From an uncultured Lachnospiraceae bacterium (GTDB lineage: Bacteria; Bacillota; Clostridia; Lachnospirales; Lachnospiraceae), in contig CANQWV010000002.1 of NCBI GenBank assembly GCA_947627645.1, forward strand, positions 1 through 52,883: 52,883 nucleotides of DNA. Direction: 5' to 3'. The translations under genes and the position numbers were made by a program. Below are positions 33,336-52,883 of this stretch, piece by piece. Every line of letters starts with the position of its first letter. Position 1 is the stretch's first letter. The notes under the pieces were generated by a model. That model ran no database searches. It worked only from the letters and a program-made list of their open reading frames with translations, and was not told where the DNA came from.

Positions 33336-33363
33336 TTGCACATTTAAAGAAAGATGGTATACT
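33336..33363 (+). promoter_or_regulatory. Promoter of CRISPR array 1
   Basis: TTGCAC (33336-33341) and TATACT (33358-33363) are spaced 16 bp apart. The layout matches the promoters found before cas6 and array 2. Confidence 0.7.
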
Positions 33364-33504
33364 ACCATATGAGAAGTATTTTGCTGGGAAAACCAGAAAA
33401 ACCCAAAAAGTGGACGGAAAATGCCTGTTTTCAGAATATTCTGTGAATTATTTACAAAAACAGGTCTGGAAACCCTTATAAATACGGTGTTTCCGAGAAC
33501 GACC
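33364..33504 (+). promoter_or_regulatory. Leader of CRISPR array 1
   Basis: About 141 nt, homologous to the leaders of arrays 2 and 3. Shared marks are CATATGAGA near the start, CCAGAAAAACCCAAAAA, the palindrome CAGAATATTCTG (33432-33443) followed by TGAATT, and CCCTTATA (33473-33480). The palindrome ends 61 nt before the first repeat. Confidence 0.85.
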
Positions 33505-33974
33505 GTAGAAATGGAAGAAGCCCGATAGAGGGCATTGACACTGCCGATAATAGTTTATGATAACTGGTCATTTTTCGTAGAAATGGAAGAAGCCCGATAG
33601 AGGGCATTGACACATTACTTCGTTCTTAAATCTTTCTCTACTCATAGTGGTAGAAATGGAAGAAGCCCGATAGAGGGCATTGACACCTTAGATACCCAAT
33701 CCTTGTATTCTTGGGTTTTTCGTAGAAATGGAAGAAGCCCGATAGAGGGCATTGACACATTTTGACAATCCTGACATTCAGTCTTAGTGGATGGTAGAAA
33801 TGGAAGAAGCCCGATAGAGGGCATTGACACCTTCTGTAGCTTCTGACAGTTCTTTCAGCAGGTCGTAGAAATGGAAGAAGCCCGATAGAGGGCATTGACA
33901 CAAGTAGCCTTTTAATGCAGGATTGATAGCGATTGCCATAGAAATGGAAGAAGCCCAGCTTAGGGTGTTGGTTC
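33505..33974 (+). CRISPR. CRISPR array 1 (type III, 7 repeats, 6 spacers)
   Basis: The 37-bp repeats begin GTAGAAATGGAAGAAGCCCG and end ATAGAGGGCATTGACAC. They start at 33505, 33577, 33650, 33722, 33794, 33865 and 33938. Spacers are 35, 36, 35, 35, 34 and 36 bp. The last repeat keeps only its first ~20 bases, which marks the leader-distal end and gives plus-strand transcription. The 3' end ATTGACAC resembles the ATTGAAA(C/G) 5' handle of type III crRNAs. GCCC/GGGC forms a short internal stem. Cas6 of cassette A lies just downstream. Confidence 0.97.
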
Positions 33975-34079
33975 CAGGCCGAAAACAAGCGCAAGACAGT
34001 TTGAGCTTTTGCAGGTTTCAGAGAAGTTTTTTGCAGTAGGGTGGATTGTGGTGACAACAGAAAAATTTTAAAATCCAGG

Positions 34080-34122
34080 AACAGGATTGGCTGGCGGAAA
34101 ATGCGTTGGCCAGTCCTGTTTT
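34080..34122 (+). terminator. Terminator-like hairpin after array 1
   Basis: AACAGGATTGGC pairs with GGCCAGTCCTGTT using wobbles, followed by TTTT in all. GCAGTAGGG occurs both before the hairpin (34033) and after it (34123). No gene is seen between the array and cas6. Confidence 0.6.
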
Positions 34123-34193
34123 GCAGTAGGGATACACAACATATGATTTTTGTGAAAAATGCCAAATAATCGGGAGTTTTGTCGGGACTTGTA

Positions 34194-34221
34194 TTGCATA
34201 TTATGGAAAAGCGTGTATAAT
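34194..34221 (+). promoter_or_regulatory. Promoter of cassette A (cas6 onwards)
   Basis: TTGCAT (34194-34199), a 16-bp spacer ending GTG and TATAAT (34216-34221) are seen. The segment TTGCATATTATGGAAAAG is near-identical to those at 39440 and 42321. Confidence 0.8.
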
Positions 34222-34279
34222 AAAAGCATATGCTGATTGAAATCTAATTGAGTGACGAGAGGATGTGCAACGGGGAAGA

Positions 34280-35218
34280 ATGAGAGATGAACTCCTAAGG
34301 CGACGGTTGTCTGTTCCGTATATTAAACTAAGGTTTTCGCTTGTTTTTCCGGATGGAGCGGAGCTTGTGCCGGAAAAGGTATCTGCGCTGCGGGGCGGCA
34401 TGGGTGAGATGCTCCTGCGGCAGAACTGCATAGGCGACCGGGACTGCCTGAACTGCAAATTTTCTGATGCTTGTATTGTCTATAAAACCATGTATACGAG
34501 AATGGAACGTCGACCCGCGTTTGTGCAGAGCGAGAGCAGCGTCGGCTATCTGATCGAGTGCGAGAGCCGACGTACACATTTCTACCCGGGAGACGGGTTC
34601 TTCTTTTATCTGACCTTATTCGGAGACAATGTTGTCTACTTCAGCCAGTATCTGCAGGCATTTTACCAGCTTGGAGTGGTCGGCATGGGAAAACGGAACG
34701 CCCGTTACCGCATCGATGAGGTGCGAAACAGCCGTGGACAGGTCGTTATGAAAGACGATCGCGTCTATGTCGAGAATTATAAGACCGAGCAGGTCTATGA
34801 TTATGTACAGAGACGTTTTCGTGAGCTGGAGAAGCAGGGATTTGCGGGCGAGATGGTTTTTCACACGCCGCTTTGCCTGAAATACCAGGGAGAATACATA
34901 AAGGAATTCAGCGCGGAGGCGGTGCTTCCGGCTCTTTTTCGGCGAATCATGATGATGGACTATTTTATCAGGGAATATATCGATCAGCCCGAGCTTGAGG
35001 GGCAGGAAATGCTGGAGCTCGCCGAACAGTATGCAGTGCCGCGGACAGTGCCGCGCTTCTCGGAGCGGAAAGGAGAGAAAATGTACCTGCGGGGGATCAC
35101 AGGCAGGATGAAGTTCGCGAGCATTCCGGATGTTTACATCCCTTACCTTCTGGCGGGCGAGCTTTTCCATATCGGGAAAAATACAAGCTTCGGCTTTGGG
35201 AGGTATACGCTTCGGTAG
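34280..35218 (+). CDS. cas6: CRISPR pre-crRNA endoribonuclease Cas6 (intact copy)
   Basis: ATG 34280 with GGGGAAG close upstream was chosen; GTG 34265 is an alternative. The protein is 312 aa. The N-terminal ferredoxin-like fold (RLSVPYIKLRFSLVFPDGAE) is followed by a four-Cys cluster (NCIGDRDCLNCKFSDAC, ~55-71). The C-terminal RAMP domain ends in ITGRMKFASIPDVYIPYLLA and GELFHIGKNTSFGFGRYTLR, the Gly-rich loop of the Cas6/DUF2276 family. It should cut repeat RNA at the base of the GCCC/GGGC stem. It is the only whole cas6 in the window, so all three arrays may depend on it. Confidence 0.92.
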   Translation: MRDELLRRRLSVPYIKLRFSLVFPDGAELVPEKVSALRGGMGEMLLRQNCIGDRDCLNCKFSDACIVYKTMYTRMERRPAFVQSESSVGYLIECESRRTHFYPGDGFFFYLTLFGDNVVYFSQYLQAFYQLGVVGMGKRNARYRIDEVRNSRGQVVMKDDRVYVENYKTEQVYDYVQRRFRELEKQGFAGEMVFHTPLCLKYQGEYIKEFSAEAVLPALFRRIMMMDYFIREYIDQPELEGQEMLELAEQYAVPRTVPRFSERKGEKMYLRGITGRMKFASIPDVYIPYLLAGELFHIGKNTSFGFGRYTLR

Positions 35219-35329
35219 GGCTCGCAGGCTTTAGCAGGATATAGGGATTTTTCAGTATTGCACAAGCGGGAAGACAGCGGCTCTGTGCATATGGAATCAG
35301 TTAATGCGAATTCAATGAGGGAGAAGGTG

Positions 35330-35689
35330 ATGGCAATAGAAACGGTATTTGTCAACTTTACAAATCATCCGTCGCGGCTGTGGGACGAGAGGCAGCGGGA
35401 AGCCGCCGAACGGTACGGGACGATCACGGACATCCCGTTCCCGGACGTGGATGCCTCGGGGGACGAGGCCTATATCGCCAGACTGGCAGAGGAATACCTG
35501 GGTAAGATACTGGCGCTGCATCCGGCGGCAGTGCTCTGCCAGGGAGAATTCACTCTGGCGTACCAGGTGATTACGAGGCTGAAAGAGAAAGGGATCACGG
35601 TGCTGGCTGCGTGCAGCACGCGGAATGTGAAAACGGAAGGAAACCGGAAGGAAGCCATATTTGTGTTCGAGAGATTTCGGGAGTACTGA
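35330..35689 (+). CDS. Small CRISPR ancillary protein, Csx15/Csx20-like (copy A)
   Basis: ATG 35330 has GGAGAAGG upstream. The 119-aa protein looks like a single Rossmann-like domain: VFVNFTNHPSRLWDERQREA, YGTITDIPFP, AAVLCQGEFTLAYQVITRLK and GITVLAACSTRNVKTEG. Proteins with an FTNHPS start and a QGEFTL block are found in type III loci. They resemble the small Csx15/Csx20 group proposed to degrade cyclic oligoadenylate; I am not sure of the exact family name. It precedes a CARF-HEPN nuclease, as does its copy at 42869 (about 80% identical by eye), which suggests it tempers that nuclease. Confidence 0.65.
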   Translation: MAIETVFVNFTNHPSRLWDERQREAAERYGTITDIPFPDVDASGDEAYIARLAEEYLGKILALHPAAVLCQGEFTLAYQVITRLKEKGITVLAACSTRNVKTEGNRKEAIFVFERFREY

Positions 35690-35724
35690 AAAGAGAGGGA
35701 AGTGTATTAAAGGAGGAACAGAAG

Positions 35725-37410
35725 ATGAAAAATGTGTTATTACTGTGCATAAGCCCGGTGAAGAAGAATGCCAGAAACAGTGAATATTTATTTCAGTCTG
35801 ATGACGCGGAAAACATTTATTTAAACGGGCTTATGACGAATGAAGCACCGACCAAAGCGATAATTCAACTGCTGAAACGTCGTGGAGGCGGTCAGAGACT
35901 GGATAAGGTTGTCGCAATCTGCTCTGAATCTGTTAGGAATGGAAAAGTCAAATTAACGGCAGAAGAGAATGACCTGGAGACGATGGAACTGTTCCGCGGG
36001 AAGGATCTTAGTCAGCTGTCACATTATGATGTTTACAGAGAACTGATAAATGATTATGCCTGCAAAGTGGATCCGACGTACGTATCTGCCGGAATCACAT
36101 ATGAGGAAGTTTATATTTCTGATACTCCGGAAGAGAATACTGTATCAAAGGCGGCAATCGAGGCTGCAAATCTGATAACGGGAATCGGAGAGCAGGTGGA
36201 ATTATACATCGATTACAACGGCGGGCCGCGTTCTATAGCATTTATGCTTTTGGCAATCGCTAATCTTATGAAGCTTCGGATGGTGAAAATTCGGCAGATT
36301 ATGTCGATGAACTTTGACAATAAGGTGGATAATAAGGTTCCGATTCAGAACATGGAGCCGGTGTTCGAAAGCTTTGATTTGATTGCTGGTATCAATGAGT
36401 ATGTAAACTATGGTCGGATCAAAGGATTGAATGAATACTTTCAGGCTTCTGATAATAAGGAGATAAAGAATCTTCTGCGTGAAATGGAGGAGTTTTCGAA
36501 TAATCTTCAGTTGTGCAGGACAGATTATGTCATGAAACATAAGGAAACATTGCTGGGACATCTGCAAAGTTATCAGAAGAGAGAGAAAGACAAGGCGGAG
36601 GAAGAAAAAACTGATGCTCGTGGACAGTTGTTCCTCTATGTGGTTGAGGATATTCTGGTGGGATATAAAGGCCTGCTTGACGGTGAAATTCCGCAAGTTA
36701 TAAAATGGTGTGTCGATCATGATTTTATACAGCAGGCGTTGACGTTTTGTTCAGAGGAAATGCCGGGATATTTTTGGAGAAGCGGGATATTTAAGGCAAG
36801 CCCGTTGGAGAAACCTGAATATAACAAATTTCTTGAATTAGTACACTCGAAAGAGGGGGAAAAATATTCCTCGCTTAGAAGCGATTACAGAATTAAGCAT
36901 GAGGAAGGTTCATCGAAATATGCCTATGAATGGATGATTTATTATCTTCCATTTTCCGCGAACAATAAAAAAAATAAGGACTATAAGGCGTTACTTGCAA
37001 ACGTAAATGAATCATACAAGAGGCAAATATTCTTTGGGCCAGATGTAAAAAAATATAATAATATAAAGAATGGATTAGGGCATTTCCAGGAATTCAATAT
37101 GACGAATATTCCATTAACCGACAAACAAATTTCCGCTGCAACTAGTTCTGCGGCGGCGCTTGTTTGGCAATTCAGGCAGACAAACAGGAGGGTGAAGAGC
37201 AAAATCCCGATAAATCGAAAGGCAATACTTGAGGAGATTTTTGTCGTCTATTTCTTGTTGAAGGGGCAGAGAAATATAACGAATCATGCAGCTGCTGCCT
37301 CTGGAGGTGATACCTCTGAAGTTGCTGCTTCTGAAGAAATAGCTGTATGGACCTATGGTCAGATCTGTAAAGTACTAAAACAGATGACTGAAGTTTTGAG
37401 AAAGATATGA
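35725..37410 (+). CDS. CARF-HEPN ribonuclease, Csx1/Csm6-like (copy A)
   Basis: AAAGGAGG lies 8 nt before ATG 35725. In the 561-aa protein, the N-terminal ~190 residues form a CARF-type Rossmann domain (NVLLLCISPVKKN, RLDKVVAICSESVR) with the conserved ELYIDYNGGPRSIAFMLLA block that contacts cyclic oligoadenylate in Csx1/TM1812-type proteins. A helical middle follows. The C-terminal HEPN domain has KGQRNITNHA (R-x4-H, ~516-521), the RNase active site. When Cas10 senses target RNA and makes cOA, such enzymes cut RNA without sequence preference. It sits between the small putative ring-nuclease-like gene and cas10. Confidence 0.85.
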   Translation: MKNVLLLCISPVKKNARNSEYLFQSDDAENIYLNGLMTNEAPTKAIIQLLKRRGGGQRLDKVVAICSESVRNGKVKLTAEENDLETMELFRGKDLSQLSHYDVYRELINDYACKVDPTYVSAGITYEEVYISDTPEENTVSKAAIEAANLITGIGEQVELYIDYNGGPRSIAFMLLAIANLMKLRMVKIRQIMSMNFDNKVDNKVPIQNMEPVFESFDLIAGINEYVNYGRIKGLNEYFQASDNKEIKNLLREMEEFSNNLQLCRTDYVMKHKETLLGHLQSYQKREKDKAEEEKTDARGQLFLYVVEDILVGYKGLLDGEIPQVIKWCVDHDFIQQALTFCSEEMPGYFWRSGIFKASPLEKPEYNKFLELVHSKEGEKYSSLRSDYRIKHEEGSSKYAYEWMIYYLPFSANNKKNKDYKALLANVNESYKRQIFFGPDVKKYNNIKNGLGHFQEFNMTNIPLTDKQISAATSSAAALVWQFRQTNRRVKSKIPINRKAILEEIFVVYFLLKGQRNITNHAAAASGGDTSEVAASEEIAVWTYGQICKVLKQMTEVLRKI

Positions 37411-37421
37411 GGAGGGTTAGC

Positions 37422-39062
37422 ATGAGCGGTAACAAATACGTGCTGGCAATGTACGACATCCGCGGGAAACAGGACTTCATCTACAGGAGCAGCAAGATGA
37501 AAGAGATCATAGGAGCTTCTTATATGATCCGCGACTGTTTCGAGGACTATTTATTTCCGGCTGCCAGGACATATTCGAAAGAAGAAAAAGGGATATTTAC
37601 CTATAAATCAAAGGGTGGGCGTGTGAAAGCGGAGGATTTGAAAGACCGGGACAAGATTTTCTCCAGGGAGAACTTTGAACGCCACAAGAATGAAGGATAT
37701 GTGGGAGAGGTCGTGTACGACGGCGGAGGAAACTTTTGGGTGTTATATAAGGATCTGGATACATACAGAGAGATCAATAAGCGATTCTATAGGGAGGTCC
37801 TTGAGGGAACCTATTCGCTTAAAGTGCTTTCATCCTACATCGAAGGCGTTGATTTTGAAGATTTCCCAGGCGATCGTCAGAAGCTGTACGCGCTTCACAG
37901 GAAGAATGAGCAGAAAGAGGATATGCTTCATCCGGTGAACGCTTTGCCAATCGTGCAGGTGGACTATCGCAGCTCCCTTCCGCTGGCTGCAAAACAGAAG
38001 ATTGGAAACGGGCCGGACGAGAAAGTCAGCTATGAGAGCAAACGAAAATATGACAAATATGCCGAGGTCATGAGCAGAAAGTCCTATGACAGAAACGTGG
38101 AGGGCAACAGGATCCTTGATGAGCTGGTGACGGAAAAGGGAGAGGAGAGTCTGCTCGCAGTCATCTATATAGACGGCAACAATATGGGCGCGAAAGTACA
38201 GAAGTGCCTGGGCAATTCGAAATCATATAAAGAGTGTGTACAGGCGCTGAGAGAATTTTCAGCAGAAATCCAGAAGAACTATATTGATGATCGGATAGAT
38301 GACGTGGACGAGCTGCTGGATAAAATACACGAGAAGAAAAACGGGCAGAGCAGCAAAAAAGCAGACGAAAAAAACCAAGACAACGATAAGGAAAAGAAGG
38401 ACGGAAGCAAAGAACGCCGTTTTGTTGTATATGCGGGAGATGAGGTGACTTTCATCTGCAATGCCAGAAACGCATACAGGATTGCGAAGAACTACCTGAA
38501 GAAGCTGGAGGCTTCCAATACGGAGGGAGAACCGCGGACTTCCTGCGCGGGTATTGCAATCTTCCACAGCCACGCGCCGTTTGCGGACGCGTACCGGATC
38601 GCGGAGGAGTGCTGCGAATCCGGAAAACAGTGGATGAAGGCGCAGAGAATATCAAACGCGTCTCTGCTTGATTTTCACTACTGTCAGGGCGCGATCGGAG
38701 TATCGCTCGAGGAGATACGCAGACAGGAGGAAACCGCTGAGGATCATCTGCCATGGTTGATCTGCGGAGATAACAGTCTGAAGGAAGAGAAAAAGGCTGT
38801 GACGGAAGAACAGGTGAAAGCGATGCAGGAGCAGCTTGTAAAAGCAGGAAGAAGCAACATCAAAAATCTGCTGTTCAGCGCGAAAAAGAGTGAGGCTGAT
38901 TTTGCAATGGAGCTGGAGCGGATCCGGGCGCATCAGACTGAGAAAGGGATTGACTTCACGCTGGGAGGAGAACTGAAGAACGAGACTGTACGCCAATTGA
39001 TTTACGATATGGTCATGGTTTATGATCTCTGGTTTGCCGATTCGGACGAAAAGGAGGCGTGA
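37422..39062 (+). CDS. cas10: Cas10-like protein with AGDE palm motif (cassette A)
   Basis: GGAGG lies 7 nt before ATG 37422. The 546-aa protein begins KYVLAMYDIRGKQDFIYRSS and continues with KMKEIIGASYMIRDCF, typical of Cmr2/Cas10-like palm proteins. LAVIYIDGNNMGAKVQ (~245) is one palm, and FVVYAGDEVTFICNA (~337) the second, at the place of GGDD. AGDE changes the second Asp to Glu, so cyclase activity is doubtful. No HD nuclease domain is apparent, and the length is well below that of Cas10 in III-A/III-B. A Lys/Asp-rich disordered insert (~305-330) precedes the motif. Confidence 0.82.
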   Translation: MSGNKYVLAMYDIRGKQDFIYRSSKMKEIIGASYMIRDCFEDYLFPAARTYSKEEKGIFTYKSKGGRVKAEDLKDRDKIFSRENFERHKNEGYVGEVVYDGGGNFWVLYKDLDTYREINKRFYREVLEGTYSLKVLSSYIEGVDFEDFPGDRQKLYALHRKNEQKEDMLHPVNALPIVQVDYRSSLPLAAKQKIGNGPDEKVSYESKRKYDKYAEVMSRKSYDRNVEGNRILDELVTEKGEESLLAVIYIDGNNMGAKVQKCLGNSKSYKECVQALREFSAEIQKNYIDDRIDDVDELLDKIHEKKNGQSSKKADEKNQDNDKEKKDGSKERRFVVYAGDEVTFICNARNAYRIAKNYLKKLEASNTEGEPRTSCAGIAIFHSHAPFADAYRIAEECCESGKQWMKAQRISNASLLDFHYCQGAIGVSLEEIRRQEETAEDHLPWLICGDNSLKEEKKAVTEEQVKAMQEQLVKAGRSNIKNLLFSAKKSEADFAMELERIRAHQTEKGIDFTLGGELKNETVRQLIYDMVMVYDLWFADSDEKEA

Positions 39063-39065
39063 GGA

Positions 39066-39439
39066 ATGAATAAGAAAAAGGGAGAAATCAGGATAACTCT
39101 CAAGTCGGATCTATGCGCAGGTTCCGGATATTCTTACGCAGGGATCGTCGACAGCGACGCCTGCTATGACACGTGCGGACTGCCGTATATTCCGGCGAAG
39201 CGCCTGAAAGGCTGCCTGCGCGAGGCTGCAAAGATGATCGGAATATCTCCGGAGCAGGAAGAACGGATTTTCGGAAAAGCGGGTCAGAACAGCGCTGTCG
39301 GCGTTTTCTGGAAAACGCATATATAGAAAACTATGAGCAGCTGTATCGTGAATTATCCGGCATGGATATGAGCGATATTTGCTCAGGAGATCACAGCCGA
39401 CATATGCGAATGAGGACAGCTTCTATACTATTCAAACTA
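39066..39439 (+). pseudogene. Frameshifted, truncated csx10-like RAMP gene
   Basis: ATG 39066 starts a clear RAMP/Cas7-like N-terminus: IRITLKSDLCAGSGYSYAGI, then VDSDACYDTCGLPYIPAKRL and KGCLREAAKMIG, as in Csx10 of III-D loci. The frame ends at a TAG at 39324-39326. The +1-shifted frame continues the protein (NAYIENYEQLYRELSGMDMS) for about 40 codons. It then loses similarity and runs into the promoter at 39440. At least the last two thirds of the gene, and all other cassette-A effector genes, are missing. Confidence 0.85.
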
Positions 39440-39611
39440 TTGCATATTGTGGAAAAGAGTGTATAATAATATCATATGAGAGTTTTTTTACGTTGAAAAA
39501 CAGAAAAACCCAAAAACGGGACTGAAAAAGCTTGTTTTCAGAATATTCTGTGAATTGAACGCAAAAATGAGCCGTGAATCCCTTATAACTACGGGCTTTC
39601 CAGACCTGACC
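39440..39611 (+). promoter_or_regulatory. Promoter and leader of CRISPR array 2
   Basis: TTGCAT (39440-39445) and TATAAT (39462-39467) are spaced 16 bp apart, directly abutting the csx10 remnant. The leader has CATATGAGAG, CAGAAAAACCCAAAAA, CAGAATATTCTG (39539-39550) and CCCTTATA (39580-39587), at the same distances from the first repeat as in array 1. Confidence 0.88.
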
Positions 39612-39799
39612 GTAGAAATGAAGGACGCCCGAGAGAGGGCATTGACACCATCCTGTCCTCGTACTTGCCGAGTGCCTGGTTCCAGGTAGAAATGAAGGAC
39701 GCCCGAGAGAGGGCATTGACACACGAGTACCCGGTCGCTCACCGCCATGATGACGGGTCGCCGTAGAAATGAGAGATGCCCGAGAGAGGGCATTGATGT
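39612..39799 (+). CRISPR. CRISPR array 2 (type III, 3 repeats, 2 spacers)
   Basis: The 37-bp repeats begin GTAGAAATGAAGGACGCCCG and end AGAGAGGGCATTGACAC. They start at 39612, 39686 and 39763. Spacers are 37 and 40 bp. The third repeat is altered near position 11-15 and at its 3' end (CATTGATGTA), so it is the distal one. Read in reverse, the first spacer has an open frame W-N-Q-A-L-G-K-Y-E-D, compatible with but not proof of a phage gene source. Confidence 0.95.
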
Positions 39800-39923
39800 A
39801 CTGCAAAGGACATGGTCGTTTCGGCGATGTCTTTTGTTTATATCAGGATTTACATAGAGAACGTATGTGCAGGGAGTTCCTACAAATTCAGGAATTCTGT
39901 TACCCCAAAGAAATGCAGATTGT

Positions 39924-40291: not shown

Positions 40292-40296
40292 TAAGA

Positions 40297-40797: not shown

Positions 40798-40802
40798 ACC
40801 CT

Positions 40803-41022
40803 ATCGATAAATTGGAACACCACAAGAATGAAATAGAACGGGAAATCTTTCGTCTCAGTGATCCGTAAGAAGCTGCCCTGGCTCCTATCCGAACCATGCC
40901 TGGCTTTGATAAGAACCCGCTCACTATCATTCAGGTGCTCTCTGAGACCGGGGCGGATATGTCTGTTTTCCCCACAGCCAAAAATCTCGTTTCATGGGCT
41001 GGATGTTGTCCACGTATAGAAG
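40803..41022 (+). pseudogene. IS110-family transposase remnant
   Basis: One reading frame encodes IDKLEHHKNEIEREIFRL, a TAA, then EAALAPIRTMPGFDKNPLTI and IQVLSETGADMSVFPTAKNL with VSWAGCCPR. This is the central-to-C-terminal Transposase_20 region of IS110/IS116 elements (GxDxxxFPSAKxLxSWAGLxP). Both ends are missing and the frame has a stop, so it is a dead fragment. Confidence 0.85.
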
Positions 41023-42231: not shown

Positions 42232-42367
42232 GATCATGAACATCGACAGGATTAACGAGATCAAGAGAACAGCTGTGAATGAAATAGTCGGGGCGGTCAG
42301 CAAATTTGCCGAGTCTTATATTGCATATTATGGGAAACGGTGTATAATGAAACTATGTTTTTGGTAG
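42224..42367 (+). pseudogene. Short coupled ORF cut by the cassette B promoter
   Basis: GTG 42224, with GGGAGGAAA 7 nt upstream and an 8-bp overlap with the sel1 gene, opens NEIMNIDRINEIKRTAVNEI. After about 32 codons the frame enters the promoter module (TTGCAT at 42321) and ends at 42367. It looks like the head of a gene truncated where the cassette was joined. Confidence 0.5.
42321..42348 (+). promoter_or_regulatory. Promoter of cassette B
   Basis: TTGCAT (42321-42326) and TATAAT (42343-42348) are spaced 16 bp apart, with TTGCATATTATGG identical to the cassette A promoter. Confidence 0.8.
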
Positions 42368-42433
42368 TCTGTTTGAAGAAACTGCCCCGGCCATGATATG
42401 CAGAAAGGGCTATAAGAGGGGAGCAACAGGAGA

Positions 42434-43228: not shown

Positions 43229-43281
43229 AAAGAAAGAAATTTATATTAAAAATAAGTGATGTACGAGGGAGAAAATAAAAG

Positions 43282-45132: not shown

Positions 45133-45154
45133 CTTTGAAGGGAGGGGCATTGCC

Positions 45155-46720
45155 ATGAGCAATCGCTATATGACGATTCTGGAGGTATCCCAGAAGCAGG
45201 CGTATATTTTCGCCAGCAACAAGTTGCGTGACAACATTACAAATTCTGCCGTGATCGCATGGATCATGAGTCCGGAATATTTCGCGAAAGAGATCGATGA
45301 TGAGAAGACGTTTTCCGAAGCCCGAAATCTGGTGTATTCCGGCGGCGGCCATACGGTTCTTGAGTTTGAGACGATGGAGGCGGCGCAGGAATTTACCCGC
45401 CGCATTACAAAGGCGATCATGAGAGATTATCCGGGGATTGTGGTTTTTGCGAAGACAATGGAATACGACGAATCGATTGCTCCGAATGTCAATCTTGAGA
45501 ATCTGACAAAGGCGCTTGAAGCGAAAAAATCCGTGAGAAATTCCGTTTTCCATCAGGGGAGCTTCGGGGTGGAGCAGATTGATACGAACACGATGAAACC
45601 TGTGCTTGCAGATAAGGCGGAGACGGGGATGCCGGAGAGTGAAGAAAAGACCGACAAGGCGCTTTCTCCGGAAGGCTATCACAGGGTATATAAGTTCGAG
45701 GAACTCGGCAGCACAAGAAACGAGTCCAGCTTTATCGCTGTAGTACATATCGACGGAAACGCGATGGGAAAGCGAGTAACGGCGCTTCATAAAGCAAACA
45801 GTCAGGCGGACTGGGAGAGCTTCAAGAAAACGATCCGGCAATTCAGTGAGGCGATAGACAAGGACTTCAAAGCTTCCTACATGGATATGGTGAATGTTGT
45901 AGCGAAGAATCTGAATAAGGGAAATCTGTCCGAACTGTCGCTGAAGGACAGAAACTTCCCGGTCAGAAGAATCATCACGGCCGGAGACGATATCTGCTTT
46001 GTGACGGAGGGAAGGATCGGAGTTGAGTGCGCCGTTGCGTTTCTGAACGCGCTTACCTCCAGGAAGAACAGTGTGGACGGGGGCGGATATGCGGCCTGTG
46101 CCGGAGTGGCGATCGTCCATCAGAAATACCCGTTCTATATGGCCTATGAGCTTGCCGAGATGCTTTGCAGCAGCGCAAAGCGTTTTGCTGCGTCCCTGAG
46201 CGGCGATGGGAGCGGAAGTGGGATATCTGCGATCGACTGGCATCTGGAGTTCGGAGAACTCAAGGATACGCTGGACGAGATCCGGGCGGATTATCTCGCC
46301 GCGGACGGGAGCCGTCTTGAACTCCGGCCGTATCTGGTATCTGCGCCTCAGGAAGTGATGGATCTGGAGCCAATCCGTCAGTACAGGAATTTCCGCAGAA
46401 TGATCAATGTTCTGCAAAAAGAAAATGACGTATTCGCCAGAGGGAAACTGAAAGGACTCCGCGAAGTACTGAAGCGGGGAGAGACTGAGACGGAATATTA
46501 CCTGAGGTTTTACCGGATGAAGGAAAAACTCTCGGATGTATATCAGGGCATTTACGCACAGCCGGAGTATGACAGGATAGGAACAGGAAAAGGACAGGAC
46601 GTGGAGATTTATGCTGATGAAAAAAGAGATGACGAAATAATCCGTCGTTCACTCCTGTTCGACGCGATCGAGATATCGGATACGTTCATAGGATTTTCGG
46701 ATGAGGAGGTGCAGGCATGA
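45155..46720 (+). CDS. cas10: Cas10-like protein with AGDD palm motif (cassette B)
   Basis: ATG 45155 follows GGGAGGGG. The 521-aa protein begins RYMTILEVSQKQAYIFASNK and continues with LRDNITNSAVIAWI. The palms show FIAVVHIDGNAMGKRV (~198) and RRIITAGDDICFVTEG (~275), where AGDD keeps both Asp of the cyclase site. GGGYAACAGVAIVHQKYPFY matches the block after GGDD in Cas10/Cmr2. There is no HD domain by eye, so DNA cleavage is not expected from this subunit. It is only distantly similar to the cassette A copy. It overlaps the following Cas7 gene by 4 bp. Confidence 0.85.
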   Translation: MSNRYMTILEVSQKQAYIFASNKLRDNITNSAVIAWIMSPEYFAKEIDDEKTFSEARNLVYSGGGHTVLEFETMEAAQEFTRRITKAIMRDYPGIVVFAKTMEYDESIAPNVNLENLTKALEAKKSVRNSVFHQGSFGVEQIDTNTMKPVLADKAETGMPESEEKTDKALSPEGYHRVYKFEELGSTRNESSFIAVVHIDGNAMGKRVTALHKANSQADWESFKKTIRQFSEAIDKDFKASYMDMVNVVAKNLNKGNLSELSLKDRNFPVRRIITAGDDICFVTEGRIGVECAVAFLNALTSRKNSVDGGGYAACAGVAIVHQKYPFYMAYELAEMLCSSAKRFAASLSGDGSGSGISAIDWHLEFGELKDTLDEIRADYLAADGSRLELRPYLVSAPQEVMDLEPIRQYRNFRRMINVLQKENDVFARGKLKGLREVLKRGETETEYYLRFYRMKEKLSDVYQGIYAQPEYDRIGTGKGQDVEIYADEKRDDEIIRRSLLFDAIEISDTFIGFSDEEVQA

Positions 46721-47295
46721 GAATCAAAATGCATTTGTTGTCGGATGCTGTTTTCGGAAGCGGGATGAGCATTCCGGGCGGGGAGGATATCGCCGTGCAG
46801 TGCGACGAGCATGGGTTCCCGTATTATAAAGGAAGTACGTTTAAAGGCGTTTTCCGGGAAGAACTGATCCGGTATCTGAACTGGACGACCGGCGACCTGG
46901 AACAGGCAAAACAGAGAGCGGACATGCTGCTTGGTGAGCCGGGAAGCGTATGCCTGGCTGAGGAAGGAAAGCTGGTCTTTTCGGATTTTCAGCTTTCAGG
47001 AGCCGTAAAGGCGGCGATATTGAATGAGATCGGAAACTCGCCCGCCACGGTGCTGGACTGCCTGACGAGCCTCAGGGCGTTCACTGCCATTGGTGAGAAC
47101 GGAACTGTTCAGGAGGGAAGCCTGCGCTATTGCAGATGCGTGAACAAGGACTTGTACTTTTACAGCGATATCGCCTGCCGGCCGGAGGAGGAAAAGCTGG
47201 TGACGGATGTTCTGTCGATGATCAAGTGGATTGGCACCATGCGGAACAGAGGGTTCGGCAAAGTGAAGATATCTGCGGAAGGGAGGATTGCGTAA
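46717..47295 (+). CDS. Cas7-like RAMP (Csm3-type), single domain
   Basis: This 192-aa protein starts at ATGA (46717), overlapping the cas10 stop, with GGAGGTG upstream. IKMHLLSDAVFGSGMSIPGG, then EDIAVQCDEHGFPYYKGSTF and KGVFREELIRYL form the Cas7 N-terminal RAMP motif. The Asp in GGED lies where Csm3 has its target-RNA-cutting Asp. MRNRGFGKVKISAEG is the C-terminal Gly-rich loop. In III-Dv complexes this part is fused to Cas5 and Cas11; here it is a separate gene overlapping the next by 1 bp. Confidence 0.85.
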   Translation: MRIKMHLLSDAVFGSGMSIPGGEDIAVQCDEHGFPYYKGSTFKGVFREELIRYLNWTTGDLEQAKQRADMLLGEPGSVCLAEEGKLVFSDFQLSGAVKAAILNEIGNSPATVLDCLTSLRAFTAIGENGTVQEGSLRYCRCVNKDLYFYSDIACRPEEEKLVTDVLSMIKWIGTMRNRGFGKVKISAEGRIA

Positions 47296-48833
47296 TGCAG
47301 GGATATGTGAGATATGTGCTGAGAAACACGGAGCCTGTCAGAATAGCGGACGACAGCACCAGTCAGAACGGGCAGACGAATTGTCTGCGTTATATTCCCG
47401 GAACGACGATCAGAGGCCTGATCATCAACGCCTTGGCCGGAGAGGAAGACTTCGCCCGCATCAAGGGGCAGCTGTTTTCGGACGAGGTCAGATATCTGAA
47501 CGCTTACCTGATGGAGAACGGCAGGGAATTGCTTCCCTCCCCGAAAGGGTTTTATGAAAACAAGGAAGTAAAGTCCAGAAAAGAAATCGAAAACGTTGTG
47601 GTGGACGGGGATTTCCGGGAAGGACACAAGCGGGCGCAGGTGGGACGTTACTGCTATTTTGACAAGGAATGTATCCGTTATTATTCTGTCCCGACCGGAT
47701 CTGACATGAAGATAAAGATCAATCTTAGGGACAATGAAAAGCAGAATGTGTTCCGCAATGAATATATCGCGGCCGGACAGACGTTCTGCGGGTACATCGC
47801 CGTCAATGACAAAGAGCTCGCAAAGAGGATCAAGGACGTGCTGGGACAGACCGTCGTCATCGGAAACGGTCGTTCCGCGGGTCTTGGAAAGTGCCGGCTG
47901 TTGTCCTGCGACTATGTAGAAAAACTTCCCTACGGAGAATATGTGCCTGAGGGCGATCTGCAGGGGTCTTGTTATATGATGCTTTTGTCCAACACGGCGA
48001 TGCGCAATGAAGAGGGAGAATATTGCGGGCTTGATCCGGAATCCCTCGGGAAGGAGATGGGCGTGGAGGCGCTTTCCGTCAAGTACTGCGCGACATCAAC
48101 CGTAGAAGTGAAGGGGCACAACCGCAGCTGGGGCGCCAAGACGCCGTCTGTCACAATGTACGAGCAGGGCAGTGTATTCCACTTTACATACTCGGGGACT
48201 TTGGAAAAAGAAAGGATCCGGAAGCTCTGCGATGAGGGAATAGGGGTTCGCAGGAACGAGGGTTTTGGCCGTGTGATCTTCCTGAACGACTACGAGAGTA
48301 TCAAATGGAAACAGCAAGGCGAGCGGACGAAGCAGGACGCAGTGTGCGAAGAGCCGATGCACGGGGAGGATGAGAAAGTTCTCCGCGTAGTGGCGCGTAC
48401 ATATTATACCAGACAGCTCCGCCGGGCGATGACGCGCTATATCACGGAAAAGCCGCTTGGGATAAAGCGGACGGACAACAGTAACCCTGACGTGAGCAAC
48501 AGCCGCCTCGGAATAATAGAATCCTTTGCTTCCGGCTTCCGCTATGAGCCGGATGAGGGAGTCGACAAGATCGAGGACTATTTTAAACATGCCGATGAAA
48601 AGGAGGAGAATCTGAAGATTCAGAAGGATACAGGCAGCATAGGACAACTTAAAAAGAGGATAGAAGATATTCTGAACACTCCGCTTGAAAGTCTCCTCAA
48701 AATGGAAACAGACGCAGGCAAGGAGACCATCATGGGGATTTCGAAGAAGAAACTATTGTCAGAAAAAGAAGAAAAGCGGTTGAAACTGGAATTGATCTCG
48801 AAGATGATTCGCTATGAGAACAAGAGGGGGTGA
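47295..48833 (+). CDS. Csx10/Cas5-like RAMP with C-terminal helical (Cas11-like) tail
   Basis: ATG 47295 with GGGAGG 8 nt upstream; the stop of the previous gene shares one base (TAATG). In the 512-aa protein, RYIPGTTIRGLIINALAG near the start and VVIGNGRSAGLGKCRLLSCD (~190) are Cas5/Csx10 features, as is GVRRNEGFGRVIFLND (~315). Residues ~365-512 are Lys/Glu-rich and predicted helical (LRRAMTRYITEKPLGIK, GQLKKRIEDILNTPLESLLK), the place where Cas11 is fused in III-D2/III-Dv proteins. It would bind the crRNA 5' handle and part of the minor filament. Confidence 0.78.
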   Translation: MQGYVRYVLRNTEPVRIADDSTSQNGQTNCLRYIPGTTIRGLIINALAGEEDFARIKGQLFSDEVRYLNAYLMENGRELLPSPKGFYENKEVKSRKEIENVVVDGDFREGHKRAQVGRYCYFDKECIRYYSVPTGSDMKIKINLRDNEKQNVFRNEYIAAGQTFCGYIAVNDKELAKRIKDVLGQTVVIGNGRSAGLGKCRLLSCDYVEKLPYGEYVPEGDLQGSCYMMLLSNTAMRNEEGEYCGLDPESLGKEMGVEALSVKYCATSTVEVKGHNRSWGAKTPSVTMYEQGSVFHFTYSGTLEKERIRKLCDEGIGVRRNEGFGRVIFLNDYESIKWKQQGERTKQDAVCEEPMHGEDEKVLRVVARTYYTRQLRRAMTRYITEKPLGIKRTDNSNPDVSNSRLGIIESFASGFRYEPDEGVDKIEDYFKHADEKEENLKIQKDTGSIGQLKKRIEDILNTPLESLLKMETDAGKETIMGISKKKLLSEKEEKRLKLELISKMIRYENKRG

Positions 48834-48838
48834 AGCAG

Positions 48839-50266
48839 ATGCCATCAAATTTTGACTACAATAAAATAATCAAATATTCGGTGCTGGCGACGTGCACAGA
48901 GCCTCTGCATATCGGAAGCACGGAAGGCGAAGCGGGAGAAATCCTGGTCCATCCGGTGGATGACCTTCCTTTCATTCAGGCGTCCGGCATTTCCGGGGTA
49001 TTCCGGGATTACTACACACGCGCGAATACGAAAGAACAGGCGGAAAAGCTGTTCGGCTCCAGTCGGCAAAGCGATGAGGATGGCGGATCCGGGAGCCGCA
49101 TTCGGTTTACGGACGGTACATTCCCGAAGGAAAACGCAGGCGTGAAAGTTGAACTCAGGCCGAGAGTGGCGATCAATCCTGAGAGCGGGAGCGTTGCCAA
49201 GGAGAAGGACGGGGAAGCCGGGCACAAGTTCGAGACCGAGTATATCGGGGCAGGGGCAAAGTTCGAGTTCTGCGTGTATCTGTACGATGACTCCTTCCGG
49301 GAAGCTCTGGAGGATGTGTTTGCCGCGACAAACAGCGGAGCGGTTCAGTTTGGCGGACAGAAGAGCAACGGCTGCGGTTATGTCAGGATCGACGGCCTGA
49401 AGCGCAAAGTGTTTGACATGACAGACGAGGAGGACCGCCGCCTGTGGGCAGGGGAGGATACCCTCGAAGACAGGTTTTATGAAGATTGCCTGAGTACACT
49501 GAAGAAGGGCAGTTATCTTGCGAATGCGTATGATATTTGCGTGACCGGCCGCACGGAAGGCACATTGCTTGTAAGAAGCGCGGTGGTGGGAGAAGGCAGG
49601 AAAGATGGGGAGGAAATTCCCGACAGCGAGAATATGCGCAACGCAAATAAGGATTATATCATCCCGGGAAGCTCTCTGAAGGGCGCCGTCAGAAATCAGA
49701 TGGAAAAAATCGTATCATATTTGAAACAAAAAGGCGTCTGTACAGGAGACCTGATCAAAGAGGCGTTCGGCAGCACGGGCAGTAAGGACAGCGACGGCAT
49801 GAGCGGAAACCTCCGCTTCCACGACGCGGTTGTCGGGAAAAAGGGAGAAAACAAAAAATACATAGAATCCCAAGCCCCCCAAGACGCCCCAAAAGCCTCG
49901 AACACAGTATTCTCGCACCGCATACATATCGACAAATTTACCGGAGGCGTGATGTACGGAGCATTGTTCAGCGAAAGGAGTGTCTCCGGGCAGGTCTGCC
50001 TCAGAATATCCGTGCTGGATAAGAACAACCCTGACCGCACCTGCGGTGTCCTGCTCATGGCGCTGCGCGATCTGGCGATCGGAGCGATGAATCTGGGAAG
50101 CGGTTACAACGTCGGCAGGGGCTTTATCGATGTCGATAAGATCAGCATCTCTCGCCATCGGGAGGGAACTGTTCAGGCAGACATCGATATGCGCAGCGGT
50201 ACGGTGAATGATCCGGACGGAATCATACAAAATTGCCTGAAAAGGGCGACGAAGGGGAGGAACTGA
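48839..50266 (+). CDS. Double Cas7 RAMP (Cas7-2x)
   Basis: ATG 48839 was chosen with GAGGGG about 10 nt upstream; GTG 48830, overlapping the stop before it, is possible. The 475-aa protein holds two RAMP modules. The first has PLHIGSTEGEAGEIL, FIQASGISGVFRDYY and FGGQKSNGCGYVRI. The second has GRTEGTLLVRSAVVGEG, KDYIIPGSSLKGAVRNQM, HRIHIDKFTGGVMYGALFSE and GSGYNVGRGFI. Two Gly-rich loops confirm the duplication. It would cover two crRNA segments in the backbone. The second module's acidic stretch could hold a slicing site. Confidence 0.85.
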   Translation: MPSNFDYNKIIKYSVLATCTEPLHIGSTEGEAGEILVHPVDDLPFIQASGISGVFRDYYTRANTKEQAEKLFGSSRQSDEDGGSGSRIRFTDGTFPKENAGVKVELRPRVAINPESGSVAKEKDGEAGHKFETEYIGAGAKFEFCVYLYDDSFREALEDVFAATNSGAVQFGGQKSNGCGYVRIDGLKRKVFDMTDEEDRRLWAGEDTLEDRFYEDCLSTLKKGSYLANAYDICVTGRTEGTLLVRSAVVGEGRKDGEEIPDSENMRNANKDYIIPGSSLKGAVRNQMEKIVSYLKQKGVCTGDLIKEAFGSTGSKDSDGMSGNLRFHDAVVGKKGENKKYIESQAPQDAPKASNTVFSHRIHIDKFTGGVMYGALFSERSVSGQVCLRISVLDKNNPDRTCGVLLMALRDLAIGAMNLGSGYNVGRGFIDVDKISISRHREGTVQADIDMRSGTVNDPDGIIQNCLKRATKGRN

Positions 50267-50267
50267 G

Positions 50268-50642
50268 ATGGGATACAGCGTACAAAAAGTAGCATATGAA
50301 GAGGCGCAGCGCCGGGCGGCGGAGTACGAGTACGCGCTGGTATATGAGATCAGCGAGCTTCTCCTGGGCAGAACAGATTCGCTGCCGCAGATCCACTGGG
50401 AGGAATGCATGGAAGCCAGATTCTTTTCCGAAAACCGCGAGCTGCATCTGTATGAGCGCAATGGGCAGATGGAGGCAGTGGAGATCTCAGACGCGGACGA
50501 GGAGGAGAGCGTTGTGAAGAGATATGCCCTGGGCGCAAAGTTCAGGAGCGCCGGACGTTTCCTCAAGGTAAAAGAATATATCAGATACGACGAGGACGGA
50601 CAGGCTTGTGTCGCGCTGACAAGGCTGTGCGGAATTGAGTAG
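50268..50642 (+). CDS. csx19: Csx19-like (TIGR03984-type) III-D subunit
   Basis: This 124-aa protein starts at ATG 50268 behind GGGGAGG, 1 bp after the previous stop. EARFFSENRELHLYERNGQM and LKVKEYIRYDEDGQACVALT, then RLCGIE, resemble Csx19, a small subunit peculiar to III-D2/III-Dv loci. The protein is somewhat shorter than usual. Its place between a double Cas7 and the Cas7-insertion gene is the expected one. Identification is by pattern and context rather than strong motifs. Confidence 0.65.
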   Translation: MGYSVQKVAYEEAQRRAAEYEYALVYEISELLLGRTDSLPQIHWEECMEARFFSENRELHLYERNGQMEAVEISDADEEESVVKRYALGAKFRSAGRFLKVKEYIRYDEDGQACVALTRLCGIE

Positions 50643-50653
50643 GAGGTGCGGAA

Positions 50654-52588
50654 ATGGAAAAGAATAGAAATGGAAATAATTCGGGATATAAAGGGAGACA
50701 AAGCTACGTGGGGGCGCCGTACAATTTTGTTTCTCTTCCCCAAAAGGTGTATGATTATCAGGAGGAAAATCATAGGCAGACCTGGCACAACGAGATGTCG
50801 GACGAGTTGTTTACCGGTGAGGTGGAATACCGGATCACGGCAAACACGCCGATCATTGTGGGAGACGGGAAAAAAGATGCGAGCGGGCTTGAACACTTTG
50901 TAAAGGATTCCGAAGGAAGATATGCGATCCCGGGAAGCACCGTTCGCGGGCTCATTCGCAGTAATGTTCAAATTCTCGGCCTCTCCAGCGTATGCGATGA
51001 CATCGATGACTATACGTTGATGTACCGGTATGTGGCGAAAGGCGCCAGGAAGGCCTATAATGCTATACTCGGCTCAAACACTCTCCTTGCTTTGTCTGAT
51101 AATGTAACAGTAAATGTGGTTAAAAACGTAAAGGCAGGATACCTTGTAAAAGAAGAAGTAAACGGAAAAGAGCATTATTATATTTATCAGACTAAGGTCG
51201 ACTTTATCAACAAAGAAGAATTAGGGGAGATGAATTATTATGTATTGAGTGAGAAAACAATCTTGAATGATAATAAGAACGGCAAGAAATCGTATCCGTT
51301 TTTTCAAAATCGTGAGTGCAATATTTTGCAGCATAATTTAAATTATATCGATGGGAAAATGCTGAATGATAAAGAAATGATAAATCGCGCATATTCTCCG
51401 TATTCTAAATTGGTTGCGTATAAGATAAAAAACGAGAAAGAGGTAGTAGCTGTAGATAACCCGGAAACGGCAAACCAGAGGAATGATTATGCAAAAGGAT
51501 GTGCGGTCAGTTCCGGAACGATGAAAAATAAAAACGTTTTATATATTGTGCCGGAGATCGATCGAAGCAAAGAAAAGATAATAGTTCCCGACTCAGATGT
51601 AGAAGCCTATAAACGCGACTACACGAAAAAGGAAAATAAACTCGGGAAAAAGGAGAAAGATTATTTTAAACTTCCGAAAGAAGGAGCAGAACCGAAACCG
51701 GTATTCTATATTCAGAATGGGGGAAATCTATTTTTCGGGTTTACACCAAGGCTCCGCCTTTCATATGAGAATTCAGTAAAAAAGGGCTTAAAGGGTAAGC
51801 AGGGAGAGAGTATATTGGATTATGGAAAGGTGATGTTTGGCTATAGCAGTAATACCGAGAGCTATCGCTCTAAGCTTTCTTTTTCAGACGCGGTGTTGAC
51901 CGGTAAAAAGAAAGAGATTCCGGAACAGAAGAAAGTCCTTGCGGAGCCGAAACCTACTAGCTATATGGACTATTTAAAGCAGGATGGGAAGACGGTTGAC
52001 TATAACGGAAATTTTGAGCTCAGGGGCATTAAGCAATACTGGCTCAGGGATACCGTTGCCAAAACATTAGATGATCCGAAGAATGATAATATATTCTCCA
52101 AATTTATCCCATTGGATAAGGGCAGTATTTTTACCGGAAAAGTGCGATTTCAAAATCTTACAAAAGATGAATTGGGCTTACTGTTATGGAGTATACGTTT
52201 GAATGAAAACTCCCGGATGAATATAGGAAAAGCAAAAGCATTCGGATACGGAAATGTGACAGTGGAAATCATCGGAGCTAAAAAGATTGATTTTGAGAGG
52301 GCATACTGTTTTGATGAAGGCTTGAATCTGTCTCCATATGAGGATATCAACGTAGACATTATGATCCAGGCGTATAAGGATCACATAAATACTTTTTTGA
52401 AGGGAGGAGATATCGACAAACTTCCGTCCATAGAAGAGTTCTTCCTGATGAAAGCTGCTGATCGAATGCCGCAGGAGGGAAGTATTCGTTATATGAATGT
52501 CAGGAAAGAATATCAATACAGGTCGAAAGCGTTGCCTTCGCCAAAGGAAGTGATAGAGGAGAGCGAAAAGGCAAATAAGAGAATATAG
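50654..52588 (+). CDS. Cas7 RAMP with large insertion (TIGR03986 type)
   Basis: GGAGGTG lies 7 nt before ATG 50654. The 644-aa protein has the diagnostic early motif GAPYNFVSLPQKVYDYQ (~20-36), then ITANTPIIVGDGKKDASG and YAIPGSTVRGLIRSNVQILG, a RAMP core. Residues ~115-370 are a Lys/Asn/Tyr-rich insertion, followed by GGNLFFGFTPRLRLSYE, the second core part GNFELRGIKQYWLR, and the Gly-rich loop NIGKAKAFGYGNVTVEI (~520). This is the Cas7-insertion subunit of III-D2/III-Dv effectors, about twice the normal Cas7 size. Its stop codon overlaps the leader of array 3. Confidence 0.85.
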   Translation: MEKNRNGNNSGYKGRQSYVGAPYNFVSLPQKVYDYQEENHRQTWHNEMSDELFTGEVEYRITANTPIIVGDGKKDASGLEHFVKDSEGRYAIPGSTVRGLIRSNVQILGLSSVCDDIDDYTLMYRYVAKGARKAYNAILGSNTLLALSDNVTVNVVKNVKAGYLVKEEVNGKEHYYIYQTKVDFINKEELGEMNYYVLSEKTILNDNKNGKKSYPFFQNRECNILQHNLNYIDGKMLNDKEMINRAYSPYSKLVAYKIKNEKEVVAVDNPETANQRNDYAKGCAVSSGTMKNKNVLYIVPEIDRSKEKIIVPDSDVEAYKRDYTKKENKLGKKEKDYFKLPKEGAEPKPVFYIQNGGNLFFGFTPRLRLSYENSVKKGLKGKQGESILDYGKVMFGYSSNTESYRSKLSFSDAVLTGKKKEIPEQKKVLAEPKPTSYMDYLKQDGKTVDYNGNFELRGIKQYWLRDTVAKTLDDPKNDNIFSKFIPLDKGSIFTGKVRFQNLTKDELGLLLWSIRLNENSRMNIGKAKAFGYGNVTVEIIGAKKIDFERAYCFDEGLNLSPYEDINVDIMIQAYKDHINTFLKGGDIDKLPSIEEFFLMKAADRMPQEGSIRYMNVRKEYQYRSKALPSPKEVIEESEKANKRI

Positions 52589-52589
52589 C

Positions 52590-52734
52590 AATATCATATG
52601 AGAGCTTTTTTGTGTTGAAAAACAAAAAAAAACCAAAAGTGGGGCTGAAAAAGCTTACTTTCAGAATATTCTGTGAATTAAATGCAAAAATGAGCTGCAG
52701 ATCCCTTATAACTACGGGTTTTTCGGATCCGACT
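52590..52734 (+). promoter_or_regulatory. Leader of CRISPR array 3
   Basis: Similarity to the array 2 leader starts at AATATCATATGAGAG right after the RAMP stop; the -10 position reads TATAGC and contains the stop, and no -35 box is seen. CAGAATATTCTG (52662-52673) and CCCTTATA (52703-52710) keep the same distances. The array may be transcribed by read-through from cassette B. Confidence 0.85.
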
Positions 52735-52883
52735 GTAGAAATGAGGGAGGCCCGACATAGGGCATTGACACAGACCGGAAGACACTCTGAAAAATGCACA
52801 TACTTCGTAGAAATGAGGGAGGCCCGACATAGGGCATTGACACGTTTTCTGGTCATGCAGCGTTCGTACGCTCCATGAGGTAG
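52735..52883 (+). CRISPR. CRISPR array 3 (partial, runs off the window)
   Basis: The 37-bp repeats begin GTAGAAATGAGGGAGGCCCG and end ACATAGGGCATTGACAC. They start at 52735 and 52807, with a 35-bp spacer. A second spacer of at least 40 bp begins at 52844 and no third repeat is reached. Confidence 0.93.

Follow-up and report, generated by a model that had tools for sequence, protein, structure and literature searches.

The window analyzed here is a stretch of 52,883 nucleotides (nt) that makes up one entire contig of an uncultured Lachnospiraceae bacterium, whose draft assembly, probably derived from a metagenome, comprises 2.73 Mb in 234 contigs and is 88% complete. It carries two neighboring cassettes of type III-D CRISPR (clustered regularly interspaced short palindromic repeats)-Cas genes, cassette A (34265-39420) and cassette B (42428-52588), together with three CRISPR arrays, all on the forward strand. 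The likeliest reading of the sequence is that Cas6A, encoded by cassette A, serves the effector of cassette B, based on the logic that its gene is the only intact cas6 detected in the source genome, that the three arrays have a common leader, stem and tag, and that the same Cas6/repeat family occurs with both effector types in related genomes. As such, B, the surviving system, probably relies on the Cas6 of its neighbor. A preliminary description of this DNA had proposed that the cassettes are twin loci which jointly form one complete system, with A processing CRISPR RNAs (crRNAs), B interfering, and two signaling branches; the processing of crRNAs by A for B is the part of that proposal that held, as the likeliest reading, and the second signaling branch and the twin relationship were given up for the reasons set out below.

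Cassette A has the order array 1, cas6A, csx20A, CARF-HEPN A, cas10A, the broken head of a csx10-type gene and array 2. Its cas6A (34265-35218, with an alternative ATG at 34280) is intact: the protein scored 52 bits against PF10040 (E 1.2e-13; cut-off 25), matched the PADLOC Cas6 model near full length (E 4e-63, residues 17-316), and has the C-terminal glycine-rich loop conserved in an alignment with nine relatives. The next gene, csx20A (35330-35689), encodes a predicted ring nuclease (PADLOC Csx20 E 1.1e-34; NCBIfam CAS_Csx20 E 1.5e-6, below cut-off), and is followed by the gene of a Csx1/Csm6-like CARF-HEPN effector (35725-37410; PADLOC CARF_HEPN E 1.5e-46; HEPN motif RNITNH), for which no Pfam family was matched and the PDB sequence search was empty. 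The reading frame of cas10A (37407-39062) is open and specifies a Cas10d protein of 551 amino acids (aa) with AGDE at the cyclase site (PF22335 E 2.8e-9; PADLOC Cas10d E 9.8e-95); it found PDB 8s9t chain C in the PDB sequence search, and no HD domain was found in it.

Downstream of cas10A only the head of a gene for a fused Csm3-Csx10 (Cas7-Cas5) protein is present (39066-39420, in-frame part 39066-39326; PADLOC Cas5_IIId E 6e-24). About 78 residues are in frame; homology then resumes in another frame to ~39420, equivalent to ~residue 125 of relatives such as L055 (L numbers denote genome stretches and G numbers genomes), after which the truncated sequence enters a promoter-like stretch and the array 2 leader. 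The frameshift looks real because homology carries on in the second frame, where the frame-shifted part gave weak tblastn matches to two relatives (best E 0.002 and 0.004). The head is 61% and 68% identical to the heads of the 794-aa (L116) and 791-aa (L098) genes, respectively. Fused genes of relatives are ~700-790 aa long; in L058 and L116 they align with the 679- and 709-position Cas5_IIId models over almost the whole length, and the L116 gene also finds 8s9t chain A (Cas7-Cas5-Cas11), weakly and with its first part only (E 4e-4). A csx10-type gene follows cas10 in 17 of the 17 A-type loci read here that reach past cas10 (L049-L058, L098, L099 and L116-L120), the match in L120 sitting in a 443-aa reading frame; the L080 stretch ends inside cas10 and is outside this count. 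The preliminary description was right that the genes for RAMPs (repeat-associated mysterious proteins) of cassette A are gone save for a frameshifted csx10 head beside an intact cas6, as judged from PF10040, PADLOC, reading frames and tblastn. One refinement is that the head belongs to a fused gene absent from B.

The best guide to what cassette A has lost is L116 (genome G672), in which csx20, cas6 and cas10 are followed by the 794-aa fused Cas7-Cas5 gene, Cas7-2x, a csx19-like gene, an insertion-type Cas7 and an array. Cas7-2x, Csx19 and the insertion-type Cas7 were all absent from cassette A in the window. The start of the fused gene lies 6901 bp from the first repeat in L116 and 546 bp from it in cassette A, which suggests that, if the ancestor resembled L116, ~6.4 kb is missing. 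Cassette A is accordingly designated the remnant of a III-Dv-like operon and not a working member of that group.

Cassette B has the complementary damage. Its order is the cas6B wreck, csx20B, CARF-HEPN B, cas10B, csm3, csx10, the double Cas7 gene, csx19, the TIGR03986 RAMP gene and array 3. Two deletions have wrecked cas6B (42428-42864), which has lost its C-terminal third and keeps only residues ~4-40 and ~86-209 of cas6A, in different frames, at ~83% identity across the shared middle, so that the cassette has no Cas6 of its own; both deletions have clean junctions within otherwise alignable DNA. A Cas6 gene in the cassette itself is dispensable in type III and does not define the type. Downstream genes are open and match their families. 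They include csx20B (42869-43228; predicted ring nuclease, PADLOC Csx20 E 1e-30, NCBIfam model match below cut-off as in csx20A) and the CARF-HEPN effector B gene (43282-45132; PADLOC CARF_HEPN E 7.5e-40), whose RNKTNH, like the motif in A, retains the HEPN R-x4-H pattern RNxxNH of Csx1/Csm6 proteins. The effector genes proper are cas10B (45155-46720; Cas10d with AGDD, PADLOC Cas10d E 3.3e-115, PDB 8s9t chain C E 1.1e-17), csm3B (Cas7; 46717-47295; PADLOC Cas7_IIId E 2.1e-56, TIGR02674 E 3.6e-20, below cut-off), csx10B (Cas5; 47295-48833; PADLOC Cas5_IIId E 6e-51), which is a separate gene from csm3B, the double Cas7 or Cas7-2x gene (48830-50266; PADLOC Cas7_IIId E 9.8e-59, PDB 8s9t chain D 'Cas7-2x' E 2.5e-15), csx19 (50268-50642; TIGR03984 E 3.2e-12, above cut-off, PADLOC Csx19 E 1.5e-19) and the TIGR03986 RAMP gene for an insertion-type Cas7 (50654-52588; E 9.6e-90, above cut-off). 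The family scores exclude chance as the source of these gene identities. With genes for Cas10d, Cas5_IIId and Csx19 and three more of Cas7 type, cassette B has a complete type III-D effector set, in agreement with the full set and wrecked cas6 that had been described for it. It is III-D1-like in that Cas7 and Csx10 are encoded separately, but one of its genes is a double Cas7.

The three arrays that Cas6A would serve are closely alike. Array 1, with its promoter-like stretch (TTGCAC-16-TATACT) and leader, spans 33336-33974 (repeats 33505-33974) and has six identical repeats plus a degenerate terminal one, with six spacers; array 2, likewise preceded by a promoter-like stretch (TTGCAT-16-TATAAT) and leader, spans 39440-39799 (repeats 39612-39799) and has two repeats plus a degenerate terminal one; and the leader and array 3 occupy 52589-52883 (array from 52735), with two repeats visible before the contig end cuts the array. 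A further promoter-like TTGCAT-16-TATAAT precedes cas6B (42321-42348). The promoter-like stretches were recognized by eye only, and a promoter scan, which found 35 sites versus 26.2 expected, flagged none of them. Leader sequence and repeat stem are common to all three arrays, and 10 of the 12 repeats carry the 8-nt end ATTGACAC, the other two being the degenerate terminal repeats. These aside, stem and tag are identical in the three repeats, each folding to the same 4-bp hairpin, and the variable positions are confined to the loop and to the linker that joins the 5' GTAGAAATG to the stem. An exact pattern search of the source genome found the repeat pattern confined to these arrays.

Searches of the same genome with PF10040, the Cas6A protein and TIGR01877 (the latter below its curated cut-off) detected one intact cas6. 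A fourth match to cas6A, on contig C17, was put down to chance (E 0.17, 47 residues, one stop). It is likely, as far as sequence comparison goes, that a Cas6 of this kind tolerates variant repeats, because in fetched stretches of relatives (L053, L081, L082, and L058 and L086 of G272) arrays lying around a single cas6 differ from one another in letters of the linker, loop or tag; whole-genome searches gave one cas6 match each in G308 (L081) and G313 (L082). Because the assembly is incomplete, effector B could be supplied by a second Cas6 encoded in DNA that was not assembled, or its crRNAs could be processed independently of Cas6, and supply in trans from other loci is reported to be usual for type III (PMC12669027). 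We nonetheless regard this alternative as improbable, given that an intact cas6 of the right clade lies ~7 kb upstream of csx20B, next to arrays that share the tag.

The comparison of the locus across related Lachnospiraceae, which the preliminary description had put forward as a check, was run, and it placed the Cas6/repeat family with both effector types. Six of the eight other members of the window's Cas6 clade lie near arrays of the type GTAGAAAT (or GTGGAAAT) - GCCC - loop - GGGC; three of these accompany A-type effectors (L053, L058, L080) and three B-type effectors (L060, L082 and, by a partial RAMP, L081), and no array was found within the fetched stretches of L062 and L078. The L116 repeats are of the same GTAGAAAT/GTGGAAAT - GCCC - loop - GGGC type. 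Of the more distant Cas6 proteins (L052, L054, L056 and L057), three of four have different repeats, no array having been found for L057. When effector types were placed on the Cas6 tree (13 rows), there were four label changes, three of them forced by well-supported branches, which is no better than shuffled labels (327 and 330 of 500 shuffles were as low). Genomes G340 (A-type) and G334 (B-type), members of the same genus, repeat the A/B mosaic of the window because their cas6 (83.2% identical) and csx20 (87.4%) are close across differing effectors. As judged from these neighborhoods, cas6 modules do interchange between effector types.

Beside csx20 and cas6 in G340 (L080:4931-9103, reverse strand) there is a gene for a 1390-aa protein that may be an unusual type III effector. 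Its N part is kinase-like (Pkinase E 7.7e-7, narrowly below cut-off; PADLOC PD-T4-6 E 1.5e-11), and its C part resembles the Card1 nuclease (PF09002, above cut-off). The B-type III-D locus of G334 (L078:2075-14789) also encodes a TIR-domain protein (535 aa), an HD protein (248 aa) and a second CARF-HEPN protein (668 aa), and adjoins a conjugation coupling protein gene (18137-19504).

The effector halves of the two cassettes are much less alike than the front module. Identity between A and B is 83% for cas6 (shared middle part) and 86.6% for csx20, and it is 40% for CARF-HEPN and 25% for Cas10. The cassettes are not copies, because their Cas10 proteins have diverged to 25% identity; together with their separate clades in the Cas10 tree, this rules out a recent twin duplication of the whole cassette, and what had been taken for twin loci are a III-Dv-like and a III-D1-like system. 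The gene order said to be the same in both agrees up to cas10, and differs thereafter. The Cas10 tree had 19 rows; those of L080 and L053 are partial sequences, and the tool gave a warning on the L053 branch, which is long. In L053 (5965-7490) and L062 (9568-11118) cas10 is split across two reading frames, the other genes looking complete; the split genes are either pseudogenes or the result of sequencing errors.

The two Cas10 types were also compared across sampled genomes. The family (299 genomes) and order (392 genomes) sets are even samples of larger groups, to which samples the counts refer. In the family sample 15 genomes match either Cas10, and among the 14 other than the source genome, 10 score higher with A and 4 with B, the near-equal scores of G272 being accompanied by an A-type fused gene; the window genome is the only one of the 299 with both types. 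Within the genus (47 genomes, its own included), 6 match Cas10A and 5 match Cas10B, both types again occurring only in the window genome. On the basis of score and gene fusion, the A-type genomes are G299, G340 and G322 (the last, which scores about equally with both Cas10 proteins, by its fused gene) and the B-type ones G313 and G334; G308 has a B-type RAMP and cas6 and no Cas10 match. The order sample was searched with Cas10A only and gave 21 matches, that is, 20 genomes besides its own, with stretches read in G672, G629, G674, G578, G666, G198, G028 and G271. A plasmid search with Cas10A returned only distant matches, in five cyanobacterial records, and a scan of contigs found one locus, stretch L080. 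The stretch L048, from an uncultured Lachnospiraceae genome, matches part of G340, in the same genus, letter for letter once reverse-complemented. G578 has three Cas10A-like places (contigs C177, C629 and C476, one of them read as L119) and may hold several type III loci, conceivably of both kinds, and G267 has a second Cas10 palm match below the cut-off.

Since no second genome in the family and genus samples has both types, and the draft is in 234 contigs with an array at a contig edge, we asked whether two loci or strain variants had been joined in one contig, or the deletions were assembly errors. Such an artefact is very improbable: unrelated genes lie between the cassettes, and the cas6B deletions have the clean junctions described above. 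A repeat-driven chimera in particular was judged unlikely because the longest exact word common to A and B is only 26 nt.

The genes shared by the cassettes diverged mostly under constraint, as indicated by low ratios of nonsynonymous to synonymous change (dN/dS): 0.14 for cas6A and cas6B over 121 shared codons (synonymous divergence, dS, 0.6), and 0.18 for csx20A and csx20B (dS 0.43). The cas6B deletions look later than the split between cas6A and cas6B. Private changes number 6 or 7 in cas6B versus 3 in cas6A, and 3 in csx20B versus 1 in csx20A, differences that are not significant.

The state of Cas10A, which has an open frame of 551 codons and no Cas7/Cas5 backbone of its own, can be read in two ways. 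Compared with L098 or L116, orthologues whose neighbors are intact, it has no significant excess of amino-acid changes (p 0.21-1.0, four tests), and over the first 162 columns its private changes are fewer than those of L098 (10 versus 29, p 0.003) and similar in number to those of L080 (10 versus 14). It is changed at 12 of 148 columns that are invariant in four relatives, as against 6/142 and 7/143 in its nearest relatives and 38/174 and 40/176 in the two distant ones. No usable dS was obtained between cas10A and L098 or L080. We considered AGDE as a sign of decay and rejected it, in view of the fact that AGDE (L098, L116, L117, L118) or GGDE (L119), replacing GGDD, is normal in this Cas10d subclade, which has csx10-type genes downstream. 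The intact cas10A thus fits either recent loss of the backbone or continued use.

Continued use could mean that Cas10A replaces Cas10B on the Cas7/Cas5 backbone of B in some complexes and so provides a second signaling branch. The open frame, the ordinary rate of change and the normal AGDE agree with such a role, which we consider improbable given the 25% identity between the two Cas10 proteins, the differing fusion pattern of their own partners and the raised number of changes at invariant columns relative to its nearest relatives; the loss of its backbone may, moreover, merely be recent. Were Cas10A to sit on the B complex, one guide set would drive two signals, and signaling heads would be interchangeable on one interference complex. 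A separate signaling branch of cassette A, as the preliminary description had it, is not supported and is unlikely: Cas10A has no Cas7/Cas5 backbone there, and Cas10 on its own is reported to produce little, if any, cyclic oligoadenylate (PMC13398931). The same source reports that isolated Cas10 can make an adenylylated by-product from ATP and speculates about orphan Cas10, which keeps open, at a low probability, the broader reading that selection has kept Cas10A, either as an alternative large subunit on the B complex or as a free nucleotide-making enzyme.

Taken with the gene losses, these results make it fairly probable, in our judgment, that tandem III-D variants came to share one processing gene, with Cas6A processing all three arrays and B interfering. 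We infer a single-deletion history in which, starting from an L116-like ancestor, a deletion of ~6.4 kb, beginning within the fused Cas7-Cas5 gene and ending just short of the array 2 promoter-like stretch, would have taken away the interference backbone of cassette A; cassette B would have retained its entire interference set, its own cas6 being lost via two small deletions. Cas6A would cut the transcripts of arrays 1-3 at the base of the GCCC/GGGC stem to yield crRNAs with the common 5' tag ATTGACAC, which would load into the B complex, the sole interference complex. In response to target RNA, Cas10B would make cyclic oligoadenylate, both CARF-HEPN nucleases would respond to it, and both Csx20 proteins would remove the signal, Cas10A being idle or nearly idle. 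A representative Csx20 is reported to degrade cyclic tetra-adenylate (cA4; PMC12409355), and both Csx20 proteins here are predicted ring nucleases.

It is important to note that several findings weigh against this proposal. Cas1 was not found in the source genome at its 88% completeness, and no protospacer was found when array stretches, including the one beyond the last visible repeat, were compared with a phage collection, or when exact matches to 24-nt cores (8 of 9 complete spacers) were sought in viral contigs, so that current activity is unproven. A further cas6 could be missing from the assembly, and the array-specific repeat variants could reflect an earlier state in which every array was served by a Cas6 tuned to it. 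Association with this particular Cas6 is not universal, G299 and G322 having an A-type cas10 and no cas6A match, and L116, which is without a CARF-HEPN gene between cas6 and cas10, is an imperfect model of the ancestor.

Some of these observations would also be expected if the whole locus were decaying and neither cassette worked now, an explanation to which we give a minority share of the probability. Two independent losses, one per cassette, the short arrays (6 and 2 spacers), the missing Cas1, an IS110 remnant between the cassettes and the slightly higher private changes of the B copies of cas6 and csx20 (not significant, as noted) are in its favor. Decay is harder to reconcile with the open B effector genes matching their families, the dN/dS of csx20, a cas10A that does not change significantly faster than orthologues whose neighbors are intact, and an intact Cas6A beside three arrays.

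The DNA between the cassettes holds an IS110-type transposase remnant (40896-41020; PF02371 E 5.1e-5, above cut-off) and a Sel1-repeat gene (41038-42231; Sel1 E 4.7e-62), neither of which is part of the CRISPR system. Rfam and tRNA scans gave no matches. The first half of the window has short tandem repeats with units of 12, 15, 21, 39 and 66 nt, all multiples of three (3631-3786, 16083-16343, 17454-17705, 20441-20578, 21183-21335 and 21870-22067).

The complementation of the two cassettes by a shared Cas6 had been thought unusual, a view that does not hold for the principle: most type III loci apparently use a Cas6 provided in trans according to the 2025 classification (PMC12669027), and the principle is therefore already known. 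Sharing of Cas6 is ordinary in principle, and the locus is a tidy example and not a new principle. The arrangement itself was not found described in titles and abstract openings among the literature matches listed, most subscription papers being outside reach. Its value is that one contig displays a front module (cas6, csx20) that is common to, and swapped between, two III-D effector designs, and provides a natural example of two designs that together amount to a full pathway after the loss of interference genes from one and of cas6 from the other. The locus would allow a direct test of how much repeat variation a Cas6 tolerates, and of whether a Cas10 that is intact but has no backbone retains any role, the intact cas10A being the remaining curiosity.

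Among known systems, the III-Dv effector of Synechocystis sp. PCC6803 (PMC11026444) is the nearest counterpart of the A lineage: L116 follows the same order of cas10, fused Cas7-Cas5, Cas7-2x, csx19 and insertion-type Cas7, whereas cassette A has been left with cas10, the head of the fused gene and no interference backbone. Cassette B is like reported III-D1 systems (PMC11026444, PMC12669027) in having separate Cas7 and Csx10, csx19 and a TIGR03986 RAMP, and unlike them in having a double Cas7 gene and no working cas6 of its own. With regard to crRNA supply, a single Cas6 in Sulfolobus islandicus is reported to make crRNAs for more than one effector complex (Deng et al. 2013, via PMC12814883), and the one Cas6 for several loci that we propose here is similar; the difference is that here the loci are two neighboring III-D variants, one without interference genes. 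The specificity and loading of Sulfolobus solfataricus Cas6 are a further reported case of shared or coupled crRNA supply (PMC4041471). Finally, the III-B system of Marinomonas mediterranea is reported to use I-F crRNAs (PMC5576922), and is thus, like the system proposed here, a type III system drawing on crRNAs made for another system, although there the two are of distinct types in one cell and both have been studied experimentally.

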